From a bacterium BMS3Bbin13 (GTDB lineage: Bacteria; Pseudomonadota; Gammaproteobacteria; 21-64-14), in NCBI GenBank assembly GCA_002897735.1, contig BDTW01000021.1, positions 1 to 64,000 of the forward strand: a stretch of 64,000 nucleotides of DNA. The letters are read 5' to 3'. The notes below the pieces were generated by a model. The model was not told where the DNA came from, did no database searches, and saw nothing but the letters and a program-made list of their open reading frames with translations. Position 1 is the first letter of the stretch; the number at the start of each line of letters is the position of its first letter. The position numbers and the translations under genes are program-made. Below, piece after piece: positions 8,048 to 64,000 of the stretch.

Positions 8048-8537
8048 TGGGTTATTTACTCCAGTCTTGCCCTCCCAGCGGCAGCCGGTTCGGGCTGGCT
8101 GGATAAGGGAATTCTTTGATTAAGCGGGAGGTCCTGAATGTAGGAGGACGAACAGCCCAAAGAGTTTCTCCGGCGAACTCGATGTCACAACGGATACTCA
8201 TCCGGTCCGGGCGCGCGGGAACCCGGCAGTATACCAGAAATCCGGCCGGAACCTTCCTTCCAATGGAGTCGGATTCGATTGGTTTTGTATTTCTCCGATA
8301 CTGCCGGCAGGCTTTGGCCCGCCTTACCGGGATGCTTACATACAAAGCAAAGCCCCAGAATTTTACTACACCCCAAAATTCCCTCTCGCACCACCTATGC
8401 CACGGTATCCGGCGTGGACCACGCGATGGCAGCCCGGCGCACGCTGAGCGGGGCGCTTCGCCCAGGTCCCTTTCAGGTCTTTTCAATACAGGGACGAGCC
8501 TGAGCGAGGGCGTGTGAGTGCGCCCTGCCGGGCGCAC
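8048..8537. other. Gene-free stretch upstream of rhlE
   Basis: No gene is supported in these roughly 490 bp: frames on both strands lack homology-like content and ribosome sites. It holds the predicted rhlE leader and promoter (8229-8237) and an AT-richer section around 8260-8400. Beyond 8537 lies the porin terminator. Nothing else was recognised. Confidence 0.6.
8229..8237 (-). promoter_or_regulatory. Extended -10 promoter, probably for rhlE
   Basis: On the minus strand this reads TGGTATACT, an extended -10 box (TGnTATACT, five of six matches to TATAAT). There is no strong -35, as expected for this class. Transcription from about 8222 would leave a leader of about 175 nt before the rhlE ATG. 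Confidence 0.5.
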
Positions 8538-8565
8538 AAAAAAAACGGGGCCCGAAGGCCCCGTT
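8538..8565 (-). terminator. Rho-independent terminator of the porin gene
   Basis: A perfect 9-bp stem AACGGGGCC/GGCCCCGTT with a CGAA loop. On the minus strand it is followed by a run of eight T. It lies 23 bp past the porin stop codon. Confidence 0.9.
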
Positions 8566-8588
8566 CGGATCGAACCCGCGAGCGCGGA

Positions 8589-9731
8589 TCAGAAGCTGTG
8601 GGCCATGCCGATGGTGAGCAGGTCCTGGTGCTTGAAGCCGACCGCCTCGGTGTTGGCCGCGACGCGCGCCCACCCGCCGTAGACATAGGTGCGGCGGCTG
8701 AAGGCGTACTTACCGCCGATCAGGTAGGCGGTCTCGTCGTTGTTCTGGTTGATCCCCTTCACGCGCGACAGGCCGCCCTGGCCGTACTCGACGACGACCA
8801 TCCCACGGCCCATCTTGTAGGAGCCGCCGAGGAACCACGTGTTGGCCTTCCCGGCATTGGCATTGGAAGTCGTGTACTTCACACCGACATCACCAAAACT
8901 CCGGGTGATCAGGCCATTGTCCTTTTCGAACTGGCCGAACAGCGCGGCACCCGCGTAGCTGAACTTGCCGCCGATCTTCCACGCCGAGTCATTGCCGCCG
9001 TGGCTGTTCGTGATGTAGCTCGCGAAGCCCAGGATCGGACCCTGGTGATACACCATCGCCAAGCTGTACGGATCGTCGTTGGCCGTTGAGGTATTGGAAT
9101 GCAGCGTGTAGGTGCCGATCAGCTTCGCGCCCATCATGGACGGGGAATCGTAGCGGATCGTGCGGTTGGCGCGGCCCTGGCCGTCCTCGCCCGCGCCCTT
9201 CTGCAGCGGCGACTCCATTCCGAGGTTACGTGCCTGGAGCGAGGTGCGCCACAACGGATCGACCATCTTGCCGGTCTGTTTGTAGGAAGTGGTGACGGTG
9301 CCGAACCGGACGATGCCCATGCCGGCGCTCTTCAGGCCGATCCACATGTCGCGGCCCTTCCACGCATCCTTGGAACCCCCGCCGTTTCCGATGTAACCAC
9401 CCATCTTCCCCCGGTTGCCACCGCCGGACACCGTCGGGTCGAGCTGCCACTCCAACTGATAGATGGCCTTCAGCCCACCACCGAGCGCTTCGGAGCCCTT
9501 GACGCCGACCGCGGTCTGGTTGCTGTCGAGGTCGATGTTGTGGCCGCGGTTGATCTTGGCGCCGCGGAACTTGGCGGAAACCCCCGTGAAGTTCTGGGCC
9601 GAGGTCTGCGTGTCCCATGCATCCACGCTCAGATTGACCTTTCCATAGACGACGGTCGCCGCTCGCGCGGCGCCGAGCGGGGCCGCGGCAGCCGCAGCCA
9701 CCGACAGCGCGATCAGCAGTTTTTTGTTCAT
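8589..9731 (-). CDS. Gram-negative trimeric porin
   Basis: Outer-membrane general diffusion porin of the beta/gammaproteobacterial 16-strand type. A clear signal peptide (MNKKLLIALSVAAAAAAPLG, cleavage after ARA at residue 24) precedes the first strand ATVVYGKVNLSVD. The porin hallmark G(V/I)KGSEALGGGLKAIYQLE is present near residue 80. The protein ends in a beta-signal with terminal phenylalanine (IGMAHSF). Length (380) is normal. It has its own promoter (9776-9804) and terminator (8538-8565), so it is monocistronic. Substrate preference cannot be read from the sequence. Confidence 0.93.
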   Translation of the reverse strand: MNKKLLIALSVAAAAAAPLGAARAATVVYGKVNLSVDAWDTQTSAQNFTGVSAKFRGAKINRGHNIDLDSNQTAVGVKGSEALGGGLKAIYQLEWQLDPTVSGGGNRGKMGGYIGNGGGSKDAWKGRDMWIGLKSAGMGIVRFGTVTTSYKQTGKMVDPLWRTSLQARNLGMESPLQKGAGEDGQGRANRTIRYDSPSMMGAKLIGTYTLHSNTSTANDDPYSLAMVYHQGPILGFASYITNSHGGNDSAWKIGGKFSYAGAALFGQFEKDNGLITRSFGDVGVKYTTSNANAGKANTWFLGGSYKMGRGMVVVEYGQGGLSRVKGINQNNDETAYLIGGKYAFSRRTYVYGGWARVAANTEAVGFKHQDLLTIGMAHSF

Positions 9732-60466: not shown

Positions 60467-61027
60467 TCAGTTGATCTCGGGCCGATTGATCTCGGGCCGA
60501 TTGATCTCCGGCCGATTGATCTCCGGGCGGTTGATCTCGGGCCGGTTGATCTCCGGGCGCTCGATCTCCGGGCGGTTGATCTCGGGCCGGTTGACCTCCG
60601 GTCGGTTGGCCTCGGGGTGGCTGACCTCGGGACGGTTGACCTCGGGGTGGTTGACCTCGGGGTGGTTGACTTCGGGACGCTCGATTTCCGGCTTGCTCAT
60701 CTCCGGCTTACCCATGTCCGGCTTACCCATGTCCGGCTTGCTCATCTCCAGCTTGCTCATGTCCGGCTTACCCATGTCCGGGGTTTCGACATTGGGTCCC
60801 TTGGGCCTGTCGACTTTCGGACCGTCCGCGTGGTCCATGTTCAATCCTTCCCGCCGGTGCATGTCGGCCCGCGCGTTCGGGTTCCCCGGGGTGGCGGGGA
60901 TGGCCGCCGCGGCCGGAGTCGCGGGGGTGGCGGGGGTGGCCGGGGTCGCGGCCAGCACGGGCAGCGCGACCAGGGCAAGCGCCGAGAAGCCCGGAATGAG
61001 AAGACGACGAATGTGCTTGCGGTTCAT
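60467..61027 (-). CDS. Exported pentapeptide-repeat protein, P-(D/E)-(I/V/M)-x-x type
   Basis: A 186-residue protein: signal peptide (RKHIRRLLIPGFSALALVAL, cleavage near LAATP), an A-T-P-rich linker, then about 21 tandem five-residue units. They grade from PDMGK and PEMSK through PEVNH and PEVNR to PEINR repeated almost perfectly at the C-terminus. The DNA repeats every 15 bp. This is not the classical A(D/N)LXX pentapeptide helix. The ATG at 61027 follows AAGGAGG. It lies 28 bp after the outer-membrane protein gene on the same strand. Charge and proline suggest an extended or wall-spanning structure, which is an inference. The DUF5666-like protein at the window end carries similar repeats. 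Confidence 0.8.
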   Translation of the reverse strand: MNRKHIRRLLIPGFSALALVALPVLAATPATPATPATPAAAAIPATPGNPNARADMHRREGLNMDHADGPKVDRPKGPNVETPDMGKPDMSKLEMSKPDMGKPDMGKPEMSKPEIERPEVNHPEVNHPEVNRPEVSHPEANRPEVNRPEINRPEIERPEINRPEINRPEINRPEINRPEINRPEIN

Positions 61028-61055
61028 GGCAGAAACCTCCTTCACAGGGAATGAA

Positions 61056-61823
61056 TCAGAATCGAATTTGTGCCCCGAGGCCGACTCCGTAGTCCGGACT
61101 GCCGTTGCTCAGCCCCAGGTCACCGAAGACCTGGAACCCCGTTCCGGGCCGCAGGTCGTAGTTCCAGGCGACGATCGCGTCCGAGGTCGCCGCGAACCCC
61201 GTTTGCTCCGACTGATAGCCGGAGTACATCACGGTAAAAAACTGGCCCCGGGCCACGCGCAGACTGCCGCCGGCCTCGTAGGTGATCACGTTGCGCAGAT
61301 TGAGATTGGGAGGGGATCCGACTATGCGGTAACCCACCCGGGCGAAGGGAAACAGGCTCGTGCCGATGGTGGTACCGGCGCCCATGCCGAACTCGTAGTC
61401 GTTCTCCCCGGTGCCGAGGCCCTTGCTCGAGGAGGCGGTCGCAAACTTGATCTTGGCGTAGGGGGTGAGATCGGGCATGCGCCCGTCCCCCCGCAGGGTG
61501 TACTTGCCCTCCAGCCACAGATCGCCCAGACCGCTACGGGTCTGGGACGAACCGCCGCCGGTCTTGCCCACCACGGTACCGCCGGAAACCAGTGCGCCGC
61601 TGCTCTTCACCGCGATGTACGGGACCGTGAGTTTGAGTTCGGCGTTGCCATCGCGGTACTTGATATAGGTAGGCACATACCAGATCTGGATGTTGCTCGT
61701 GGTGCCGAAACTCCCTTCGAAATAGGACGGCTGCACGCCGACCGTGGCGTGGGGCTGGGCCGCTTGGGCGGCACCGCCCGCGAGCAGCGCCGCCACCGCT
61801 GTGATCAGATACGCATGACGCAT
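61056..61823 (-). CDS. Predicted outer-membrane beta-barrel protein
   Basis: A 255-residue protein with a signal peptide (MRHAYLITAVAALLAGGAAQ, then AAQPHATVGV), alternating amphipathic strands and a terminal phenylalanine (GVGLGAQIRF), the outer-membrane insertion signal. The middle is rich in G, S and T (KTGGGSSQTRSGLGDLWLEG), resembling the small transporter-like barrels of the Phenol_MetA_deg group. The family is uncertain. AGAGGAG precedes the ATG. First gene of a two-gene minus-strand unit with the repeat protein, divergent from the DUF6502-like gene and probably controlled by the operator at 61908. Confidence 0.78.
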   Translation of the reverse strand: MRHAYLITAVAALLAGGAAQAAQPHATVGVQPSYFEGSFGTTSNIQIWYVPTYIKYRDGNAELKLTVPYIAVKSSGALVSGGTVVGKTGGGSSQTRSGLGDLWLEGKYTLRGDGRMPDLTPYAKIKFATASSSKGLGTGENDYEFGMGAGTTIGTSLFPFARVGYRIVGSPPNLNLRNVITYEAGGSLRVARGQFFTVMYSGYQSEQTGFAATSDAIVAWNYDLRPGTGFQVFGDLGLSNGSPDYGVGLGAQIRF

Positions 61824-61901
61824 CGCTTTCTCCTCTTGAACTTCGCCCGAATCACCTGCCCCCAGCGCGCCGGCCCGTACCCCGGCGGCCCCTGAGAACC
61901 T

Positions 61902-61931
61902 TGTCTAGTGGGAACATTTCCCACGCACCAA
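61902..61931 (-). promoter_or_regulatory. Candidate promoter of the outer-membrane protein gene
   Basis: Minus strand: TTGGTG (61931-61926), an 18-bp spacer that contains operator 1, TAGACA (61907-61902). Both boxes are weak (three of six), but the operator placement is telling. Confidence 0.35.
61908..61924. promoter_or_regulatory. Operator site 1
   Basis: Perfect inverted repeat GTGGGAACATTTCCCAC: 7-bp arms GTGGGAA/TTCCCAC around CAT. It lies between the predicted -35 and -10 boxes of the minus-strand promoter. Confidence 0.75.
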
Positions 61932-61945
61932 GTCGAGAATTCCCT

Positions 61946-61974
61946 TTGCGTTAAACCAAGTTTTGCATTACACT
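61946..61974 (+). promoter_or_regulatory. Candidate sigma-70 promoter of the DUF6502-like gene
   Basis: TTGCGT (61946-61951), exactly 17 bp, TACACT (61969-61974). The start point would be near 61981, just before operator 2, leaving about 80 nt to the ATG. Confidence 0.5.
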
Positions 61975-61984
61975 GGCCATGTTA

Positions 61985-62001
61985 GTGGGAACTTCTCCCA
62001 C
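61985..62001. promoter_or_regulatory. Operator site 2
   Basis: GTGGGAACTTCTCCCAC, the same 17-bp dyad as site 1 with a weaker central pair, starting 77 bp from it. It lies at about +5 to +21 of the plus-strand promoter, a repressor-type position. Confidence 0.75.
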
Positions 62002-62061
62002 TGTCAAATTCCAATCACGGAAATTGTGACCCGGTTCACGATTTCCGGATGGTGGAGATCC

Positions 62062-62889
62062 ATGCCGGATACCGCTCTGCAAACCGCCCTGGTGGAACTG
62101 CTGCGCCCCCTCGTGCGCTACTTGATCGGGCACGGCTGGGGCTACCCGGCTCTGTGCGACCTCCTCAAGGGCCTGTACGTGGCGGAAGCGGCGACGCTCG
62201 ACCGCGCACCGGGGCGGGCGACCGACAGCCGCCTGAGCCTGCGCACCGGGATCCACCGGCGCGAGGTCAAACGATTGCGCAAAGAATGGGAAGGGGCAGC
62301 GACACTCCCGCTGCCCCGGCGCGATGCGAATCTCGCGTCGCGCGTCGTGGCGACCTGGGGCTCGGCGCCCGAGTATCTGGACGCGCACGGCGAGCCGCGG
62401 GTCCTCCCGTTGCGCGACGTCGGCGACGAGCCGGGTTTCGAGGCGCTGGTGCGACGGGTGAAGGCGGACGTACGGCCCCGCTCGGTGCTGGACGAATTGG
62501 TGCGGGTCGGCGTGGCCGCGGAGACGCCCGAGGGCGCGCGCCTCCTGCGCACGGCCTACGTCTCCCCTCTGCCCGAAGAGAAGCTCGAGTTCCTGGCGGC
62601 CAACGTGGGGGATCACCTGCGCAGCGCCCTGCACAACCTGTCCCACCCGCAAGAGCCCTATCTGGAACGGGCCCTGTATCATGAGTCGATCCCCGCGGCC
62701 GATCTGGACCGCCTGCGCCCGGAACTGGTGCGTCTGGCCGAACCACTGCTGCGTGAGGCGAACCGGCGACTGCTGGACGCCGGTACGGTGGGAACCGAGA
62801 CCCGTGCGACGCCGCGTCGGCGGATGCGCCTGGGGCTGTACTACTATGAGGAGGACACCGGTGGTGCACCATCGACCGAGAACACGTGA
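62062..62889 (+). CDS. DUF6502-like protein, probable DNA-binding regulator
   Basis: A 275-residue soluble protein. Its first part (LVELLRPLVRYLIGHGWGYP, then ALCDLLKGLYVAEA and LSLRTGIHRREVKRLRKEW) reads like a helix-turn-helix with a recognition helix near residue 65. The rest has helical segments (LEFLAANVGDHLRSALHNL) and a basic end. It resembles the DUF6502 family by its start and context. The ATG at 62062 follows GGTGGAG. It lies just downstream of two dyad operators, so autoregulation is plausible. Its stop overlaps the next gene by 26 bp, giving translational coupling. Confidence 0.8.
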   Translation: MPDTALQTALVELLRPLVRYLIGHGWGYPALCDLLKGLYVAEAATLDRAPGRATDSRLSLRTGIHRREVKRLRKEWEGAATLPLPRRDANLASRVVATWGSAPEYLDAHGEPRVLPLRDVGDEPGFEALVRRVKADVRPRSVLDELVRVGVAAETPEGARLLRTAYVSPLPEEKLEFLAANVGDHLRSALHNLSHPQEPYLERALYHESIPAADLDRLRPELVRLAEPLLREANRRLLDAGTVGTETRATPRRRMRLGLYYYEEDTGGAPSTENT

Positions 62890-64000
62890 ACGATGCCCGC
62901 TGTGGGCGCGGCGCGCGCGGGCCTCCACCCCGTTGCGCACTCTGCTGCTCGGACTGCTGCTCACGCTGGCGGCGGGACCCATCTCCATGGGCGCGACCGA
63001 CGGCGGCGGGATCGGCGGCACCGGCATCACCGGCTTCGGGCCCATCCAGGGCTTCGGCAGCATCTTCGTCAACGCCCGAGAGTATTTTCTGCGCGCCGAT
63101 ACGCGGATCACGGTCGACGGCCGGGCCGCGGGGCGCAGGGCGTTGCACGTGGGCGATATGGTGGTGGTACGCGGCACGGCGGACCCGGCGCGTACCACCG
63201 GATGGGCGGATGTCGTACAGGTACGCCACCCGCTGGTGGGACGGGTCGATGCGGTGTCGGCGGGTGGTGCGCACCTGACGGTACTGGGTCAGGGGGTGCG
63301 CATCCCGGCCGGTGTACCCGTCGTGGGTGGTGACGGACACACCGTCGCGCTACACGCCGGCGACTGGGTGGCGGTGAGCGCACTGGCGAACGCGCGCGAC
63401 GAGTGGATCGCCACGCGCGTGGCGCTGCGCTACCCCGCGGGCTCCGTCCCCGCGGGGGTCCCGGCGGTGATCGAGGGACGGGTCGCGAGCGTTGGACCGA
63501 ACGGCGTGCTGCGCATCGGCACCCAGGCGGTCCGTCTCGAAGGAGCCGCCGCGCACAAGTCCGCGCCCGCACCCGGCGCGCGGATCCGCGTGGTGGGTCG
63601 CTATCGGGACGGCGTGATCCTCGCAAGCCGGCTCGCGCCGGCGCGGCCGGCGCTGGGCGGCCCGGGCCGCTATGTCGAGATGGAAGGCTACGCGGTGCCG
63701 CGCGCCGCCGGCGGGCTGCACAGCAACGGGATCCTGCTGCGCCCGCCCGGCGGCAAAGAGGGCGCCGGGCCGACCGGAATCCGGGCCGACCGGGCGTTGG
63801 TGTTCACCGGCAGGATCGGGCCGGACGGGTCGTTGGAGATCGAACGCATGGAACCCCCGCATGCGCCGGAGTTGCCGCACGCAGGTGCGGGCGGCGGTGA
63901 AAGGGGGTTCGGGGGACATGGGACACACGGGATCGAACGCCCGGAACTCGAGCGACCCCGAATCGAGCGCCCGGAACTCGAGCAGCCCCGGATCGAGCGC
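62864..64000 (+). CDS. Exported DUF5666-like protein with C-terminal pentapeptide repeats (3' end outside window)
   Basis: The frame is open from GTG 62864 (or 62861) to the window end, 379 codons so far. GAGGAGG lies eight bases upstream, inside the DUF6502-like gene. A basic N-terminus and hydrophobic LRTLLLGLLLTLAAGPISMG make a signal peptide, then GGGIGGTGITGFGPIQGFGS, the family's typical opening. Repeated small OB-like beta units follow, such as ALHVGDMVVVRGTAD and VPAVIEGRVASVGPNGVLRI. After a Gly/His-rich linker the sequence becomes RPELE, RPRIE, RPELE, QPRIE: five-residue repeats like those of the exported repeat protein at 60.5-61.0 kb. Confidence 0.8.
   Translation, partial: MHHRPRTRERCPLWARRARASTPLRTLLLGLLLTLAAGPISMGATDGGGIGGTGITGFGPIQGFGSIFVNAREYFLRADTRITVDGRAAGRRALHVGDMVVVRGTADPARTTGWADVVQVRHPLVGRVDAVSAGGAHLTVLGQGVRIPAGVPVVGGDGHTVALHAGDWVAVSALANARDEWIATRVALRYPAGSVPAGVPAVIEGRVASVGPNGVLRIGTQAVRLEGAAAHKSAPAPGARIRVVGRYRDGVILASRLAPARPALGGPGRYVEMEGYAVPRAAGGLHSNGILLRPPGGKEGAGPTGIRADRALVFTGRIGPDGSLEIERMEPPHAPELPHAGAGGGERGFGGHGTHGIERPELERPRIERPELEQPRIER

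Follow-up and report, generated by a model that had tools for sequence, protein, structure and literature searches.

Four genes at the end of a 64,000-nucleotide stretch of contig BDTW01000021.1 (assembly GCA_002897735.1) from the gammaproteobacterium BMS3Bbin13, which we call the window, belong by sequence comparison to a previously undescribed envelope cassette that is widely conserved, mostly in sulfur- and iron-oxidising bacteria. Its members are an outer-membrane beta-barrel, an exported protein built of five-residue repeats with one proline each (the pentad protein), a DUF6502 protein and an exported DUF5666 protein. We think it reasonably probable that they form a self-contained, repressible system in which DUF6502 is the repressor and the two exported proteins carry docking tails. 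What is chiefly new is the prediction of an operator for DUF6502 and of its action as a repressor. No paper of the literature searched names this family; it gains a concrete role, as a predicted DNA-binding autoregulator with a defined operator, and is tied to DUF5666, which is also uncharacterised.

Gene content and conservation of the cassette

A sequence-only reading of the window had pointed to these four genes, with about 21 repeat units in the secreted protein, and had arranged them as two divergent operons. We verified all four in the region 60467-64111 (Table 1), and gene strands and coordinates bear out the layout: barrel and pentad genes form the minus-strand transcription unit, DUF6502 and DUF5666 genes the plus-strand one. 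The DUF5666 start overlaps the end of the DUF6502 gene and is preceded by a GAGGAGG ribosome-binding site. Both family assignments exceed the Pfam gathering score (88.9 bits vs 27 for DUF6502, PF20112; 51.7 bits vs 27 for DUF5666, PF18914). That reading had also placed the cluster after lysA, where dapF would be expected. The position after lysA is right, while dapF is not missing: in the sequence past 64 kb the DUF5666 gene ends at 64111 and is followed by dapF (contig positions 64241-65065), then DUF484, xerC, hslV and hslU, so we dismissed the idea that the cluster replaces dapF. The cassette is an insertion between lysA and dapF, as it is in the other genome of the genus (locus L038), where a methyltransferase-like open reading frame (ORF; 8404-9132) is added before dapF.

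Table 1. Coordinates of the cassette genes, repeat tail and predicted regulatory sites
Feature	Position	Strand	Details
Exported Pro-pentad protein	61027..60467	-	ATG start, 186 aa, signal peptide (translation, tandem repeats)
12-stranded outer-membrane beta-barrel, FapF/COG4313 fold class (predicted)	61823..61056	-	255 aa; AlphaFold model, Foldseek
Operator copy 1 (predicted), GTGGGAACATTTCCCAC	61908..61924	.	0 mismatches
Predicted sigma-70 promoter of barrel/pentad operon	62007-61979	-	TTGACA - 17 bp - TAACAT; 10/12 consensus positions
Operator copy 2 (predicted), GTGGGAACTTCTCCCAC	61985..62001	.	Exactly fills spacer of predicted barrel/pentad promoter
DUF6502 regulator	62062-62889	+	275 aa, predicted N-terminal helix-turn-helix; PF20112 E=3.3e-25
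Exported DUF5666 protein	GTG 62861..contig position 64111	+	416 aa; PF18914 E=1e-13
DUF5666 C-terminal Pro-pentad tail (ERPELERPRIERPELEQPRIERPEI...)	63930..contig position 64111	+	Runs beyond window end at 64000

Relatives were drawn from two samples: 273 genomes of the class, 75 of which have DUF6502 (63 DUF6502 genes examined, 61 loci fetched around them), and a search for the barrel through 84,980 species genomes, which gave 273 relatives, the best 80 of them kept as barrel loci (760 kb). A DUF5666 gene follows DUF6502 in 43 of the 63 loci, its start often overlapping the DUF6502 stop by a short stretch, and each of the 43 is borne out by Pfam. Barrel, DUF6502, DUF5666, pentads and the operator described below occur together in 19 rows from the best 80 of 273 barrel relatives plus the earlier loci; since L100 and L166 duplicate L038 and L087, there are 17 distinct full loci including the window, and since L106 has pentads only in its DUF5666 tail, a separate pentad protein is encoded in 16 loci (the window and 15 others). 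Pentad proteins stand beside barrels in L038, L076 and L087, which are the loci of the DUF6502 sample with both, and in L101-L105, L111, L117, L122, L125, L128, L129 and L135; a looser rule added those of L112, L115, L118, L119 and L126. Gene order varies between loci. The four families thus co-occur in many unrelated loci, confirming that the proposed gene linkage is real and that the cassette is conserved as a unit. Lack of a neighbourhood linking the families, one of two outcomes named in advance as refuting the proposal, is therefore not what we see. No further gene family is common to the cassettes beyond close relatives; we therefore take the four genes to be that unit. The earlier statement that no known system was recognisable also holds, as far as we searched.

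A predicted operator and its probable regulator

Upstream of DUF6502 we found the palindrome TGGGA-N4-7-TCCCA in 25 of the 63 genes, against 0.06 expected from dinucleotide shuffles; TGGGA ranks first of the 1024 possible arms, and the next arm scores 6 and overlaps it. There are two forms, GTGGGA-N5-TCCCAC in the cassettes and TTGGGA-N6-TCCCAA in the broad DUF6502 family. The window genome has the first form twice, both copies between the divergent genes, and no site elsewhere at one mismatch or fewer. The barrel loci hold 22 such N5 sites, 18 of them no more than ~300 bp from the start of a DUF6502 ORF; among the others, 2 are inside over-extended ORFs and 1 is just upstream of a barrel. A literature search for the palindromes returned no relevant paper.

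In 19 of 24 operator-bearing loci the order is TTGAC-(0-1 nt)-operator-TAnnnT, with the operator exactly filling the promoter spacer. All 19 promoters point away from DUF6502, most of them facing the barrel or pentad gene directly, and they have the optimal spacers of 16-17 bp with near-consensus hexamers. Because the operator fills the normal spacer of a promoter firing toward the exported genes, we read DUF6502 as most likely a DNA-binding repressor, and from the position of the sites and the predicted helix-turn-helix we infer that DUF6502 itself binds them. The earlier call of a DUF6502-like regulator is strengthened by this specific predicted operator, and the sequence evidence for regulation is good. 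Regulators of the MerR type bind promoter spacers too, and those of MerR promoters are 19-20 bp long. Activation by DUF6502, through MerR-like re-alignment or in the manner of HetR, which is its best fold match and an activator (PMC4649674), seems to us unlikely, as optimal spacers with near-consensus hexamers need no re-alignment. The broad-family palindrome overlaps, with its N6 core, the -10 element of DUF6502's own promoter; a -10-like hexamer is present in 17 of 18 cases and a -35 also in 10 of the 18. The genes of this group (L055-L060, L069, L070) look leaderless, with the ATG a few bases after the palindrome core that carries the -10.

The HetR match comes from the DUF6502 model, which has a predicted local distance difference test (pLDDT) of 80.7: the best Foldseek target is HetR bound to DNA (4yrv, E = 0.0086, probability 0.96, template-modelling score only 0.32), aligned over nearly the whole DUF6502 length, and apo HetR (3qod) is matched as well. 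HetR itself is made up of DNA-binding, flap and hood domains and is inhibited by an RGSGR-type peptide. The order of helices, helix-turn-helix and beta-hairpin, judged from the sequences, is similar, and GGG...CCC half-sites are common to both proteins. However, HetR requires GGG-N5-CCC (PMC4649674, PMC4192349), whereas the spacing for DUF6502 is N7 or N8; nor did we see a PatS-like gene. Homology by profile comparison was rejected, the hhalign score of 14.9 (HetR query checked against PDB chains) lying within shuffled controls (mean 14.3, max 21.2). A search of plasmids for a deeper HetR profile gave no match, and one of solved structures with the DUF6502 and DUF5666 profiles nothing meaningful. 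We regard a HetR-like architecture as plausible on the model, with homology unproven; this makes it conceivable that regulators resembling HetR exist beyond the cyanobacteria. It is very unlikely, in our estimation, that DUF6502 is a true non-cyanobacterial HetR relative that controls export genes through GGG...CCC sites and is itself governed by a short peptide from the exported products (for instance the GGIGGTG motif of DUF5666, or the pentads); if it were, proteobacteria would have a feedback circuit of the HetR/PatS kind, linked to a FapF-like exporter whose cargo is Pro-pentad surface proteins.

The barrel and the shared repeat tails

AlphaFold models the window barrel with 12 strands (pLDDT 91.7). 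Its best Foldseek match is FapF (TMq 0.64-0.74), followed by the COG4313 channel 4rl8, and FapF also comes first, weakly (E = 0.007), in a sequence-profile search. The Fap system of Pseudomonas offers a close parallel, in that a barrel likewise 12-stranded and of the same fold is encoded beside exported repeat proteins, the substrates FapB and FapC. FapF, however, has an N-terminal coiled coil and a helical plug (PMC5557850), whereas in the window model the signal peptide is immediately followed by the first strand, which begins at residue 25, near the predicted mature start. The cassette differs further in having no FapD-type protease in the window and no extra family in common, in the proline at every fifth residue, which disfavours amyloid, and in its added DUF6502/DUF5666 pair. 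By its model, then, the barrel falls in the FapF/COG4313 fold class and is not a FapF, and an amyloid-exporter-like barrel appears to travel with a pair of exported proteins that have a repeat tail in common; together with the regulator, these define a four-part envelope system.

The same fold class takes in the COG4313/Phenol_MetA_deg channels (Pput2725, SphA, TcpY), which are linked to hydrophobic uptake and have the N-terminus inserted in the barrel (PMC4493636). The cassette barrel could accordingly be a channel of the COG4313/SphA type that takes up a hydrophobic compound; DUF6502 would sense this compound, and the exported proteins would be periplasmic or surface binding partners. The rank of 4rl8 as second-best fold match agrees with this, as do the weak matches of Phenol_MetA_deg (PF13557) to 14 of 35 barrel family members; the window barrel gives none. 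We hold it to be possible but doubtful: the window model has no barrel-inserted N-terminus, no catabolic genes lie alongside, the cassettes have no enzyme gene, catabolic or otherwise, in common, and the shared pentads are left unexplained.

Those pentads follow a signal peptide and an Ala/Thr/Pro-rich linker with GNPNARADMHRREG; we count 21 of the form P-[DE]-[IVM]-x-[RKH], from PDMGK to PEIN, one starting with L and the last partial. As a DNA pattern, four successive P-[ED]-[IVM]-x-x units occur in the 2.69 Mb genome only at 60474-60736 (11 overlapping matches; reversed-pattern control, 0), the DUF5666 tail being too varied to match so strict a pattern. That the proteins at both ends of the cluster share the repeat type, as had been claimed, is evident from the nine consecutive Pro pentads that end DUF5666, and independently from a DNA-level match between the two tracts (74%, E = 1.9e-8). 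In 228 of 250 pentads (91%) the third residue is I, V or L; position 2 is mostly E/D, position 4 E/D/Q and position 5 R/K; the charges are lost in some lineages (L112, L115, L119 with PSVQTPAVSV, L129 with PAISTPNVNV). Membership of the pentapeptide-repeat family was rejected: the five-residue period and central hydrophobic residue are common to both, but PF00805 repeats read A(D/N)LXX where ours have a Pro in each unit, and the window proteins gave no PF00805 match at E <= 0.1. Titin PEVK and extensin-like repeats have a similar Pro-Glu-(Val/Ile)-Lys/Arg composition, a likeness of composition and not of homology, with Extensin_1 matches below the curated cut-off.

The other outcome named in advance as refuting the proposal, that DUF5666 homologues lack repeats in most genomes, is true of the broad family, runs of at least five pentads appearing in only L003, L038, L076 and L087 among the 61 loci around DUF6502 genes, whereas nearly all barrel-linked DUF5666 proteins have a low-complexity, usually Pro-rich C-terminal tail. 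The tail unit changes by lineage (KVE, PEKVEK, RPD or pentads), and tail and pentad protein are more alike within a genome than in permuted pairs (p = 0.024, over nine loci that are not fully independent). The change of unit (Pro pentads, KVE triads, RPD triads) and the rarity of pentads in DUF5666 at large would both suit low-complexity filler that serves no common function and has converged through composition and repeat slippage. We give that explanation limited credence, in view of the tail of some kind in nearly every barrel-linked DUF5666 protein, the maintenance of P-x-[IVL]-x-x, the confinement of strict pentad runs to one place in the window genome and the tendency of a genome's two proteins to have the same repeat type. 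The pentads are probably an extended spacer or docking tail common to two exported partners of the barrel, which agrees in part with the original proposal of a common binding or spacer module, perhaps one that links the exported proteins to each other, to metal or to the barrel.

Its metal-binding part is weakened. A metal- or acid-stress module whose Asp/Glu/His pentads bind cations would fit several named hosts, which are acidophilic Fe/S oxidisers, and a study of iron in A. ferrooxidans lists one DUF5666 gene among its hub genes (PMC10714799). The pentad proteins of L117 (5796-6257) and L102-L104 have dense Asp/His repeats (DMDHHDMDH), possibly cation binding. We nonetheless consider such a module improbable, since the uncharged pentads of L112, L115, L119 and L129 are unlikely chelators, those of L119 and L129 weakening chelation as a general role, and E/N/R residues predominate in the pentads of the window itself. 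In the pentad protein of L076 (3338-3946) the pentads are preceded by a long N-terminal stretch that is rich in Ala, Arg and Gln and resembles a coiled coil. A GGIGGTG motif directly after the DUF5666 signal peptide (62987-63040) is nearly invariant among homologues and repeated many times in some (L139, L177, L087).

In L108, L110, L114, L134 and L187 (genome G263) the barrel adjoins a pentad protein with neither DUF6502 nor DUF5666 close by. Since barrel and pentad protein are thus sometimes paired with no regulator pair nearby, we see in the barrel the strongest candidate for the docking partner. The repressible cassette that we favour draws direct sequence-level support from gene content, conservation, operator, promoter geometry, predicted barrel fold and tail co-variation. 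DUF6502 would act as a one-component repressor, its dimer sitting on GTGGGA-N5-TCCCAC within the spacer of the sigma-70 barrel/pentad promoter and also in front of its own operon, until a signal lifts repression. The derepressed cell would then make the 12-stranded barrel and two Sec-exported proteins, whose tails, with Pro at every fifth residue, would reach toward a common partner, most likely the barrel, and the barrel might export these proteins or anchor them at the surface. Several points weigh against this proposal: the five barrel-pentad pairs just described lack a nearby DUF6502; the promoter layout is missing in 5 of 24 operator-bearing loci, and the exact palindrome in 38 of the 63 DUF6502 genes (27 even allowing one mismatch); DNA binding by DUF6502 is deduced from position; the tail comparison uses few, partly dependent loci; and the COG4313 relatives of the barrel are thought to import hydrophobic molecules rather than export proteins.

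Hosts and variant loci

Named hosts among the top barrel matches are Acidithiobacillus, Thiomonas, Halothiobacillus, Thiobacillus, Acidiferrobacteraceae and Mariprofundaceae, together with many metagenome-assembled genomes. SoxB has a strong match in the window's own genome, and soxB is present in 19 of 27 barrel genomes vs 94 of 246 others (Fisher p = 0.0014, relatedness uncorrected). This enrichment is modest, so a functional link to sulfur oxidation was set aside and we take it as a habitat correlation only. Four Acidithiobacillus loci (L109, L120, L121, L123) have close barrel homologues (~50% identity); DUF6502, DUF5666 and pentad genes are all absent from the flanks retrieved (<=5 kb per side; shorter in L120, at a contig end). 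Elsewhere, in L042, L044, L047, L053 and L069, more than one gene for a DUF5666-type exported protein lies near a single DUF6502 gene.

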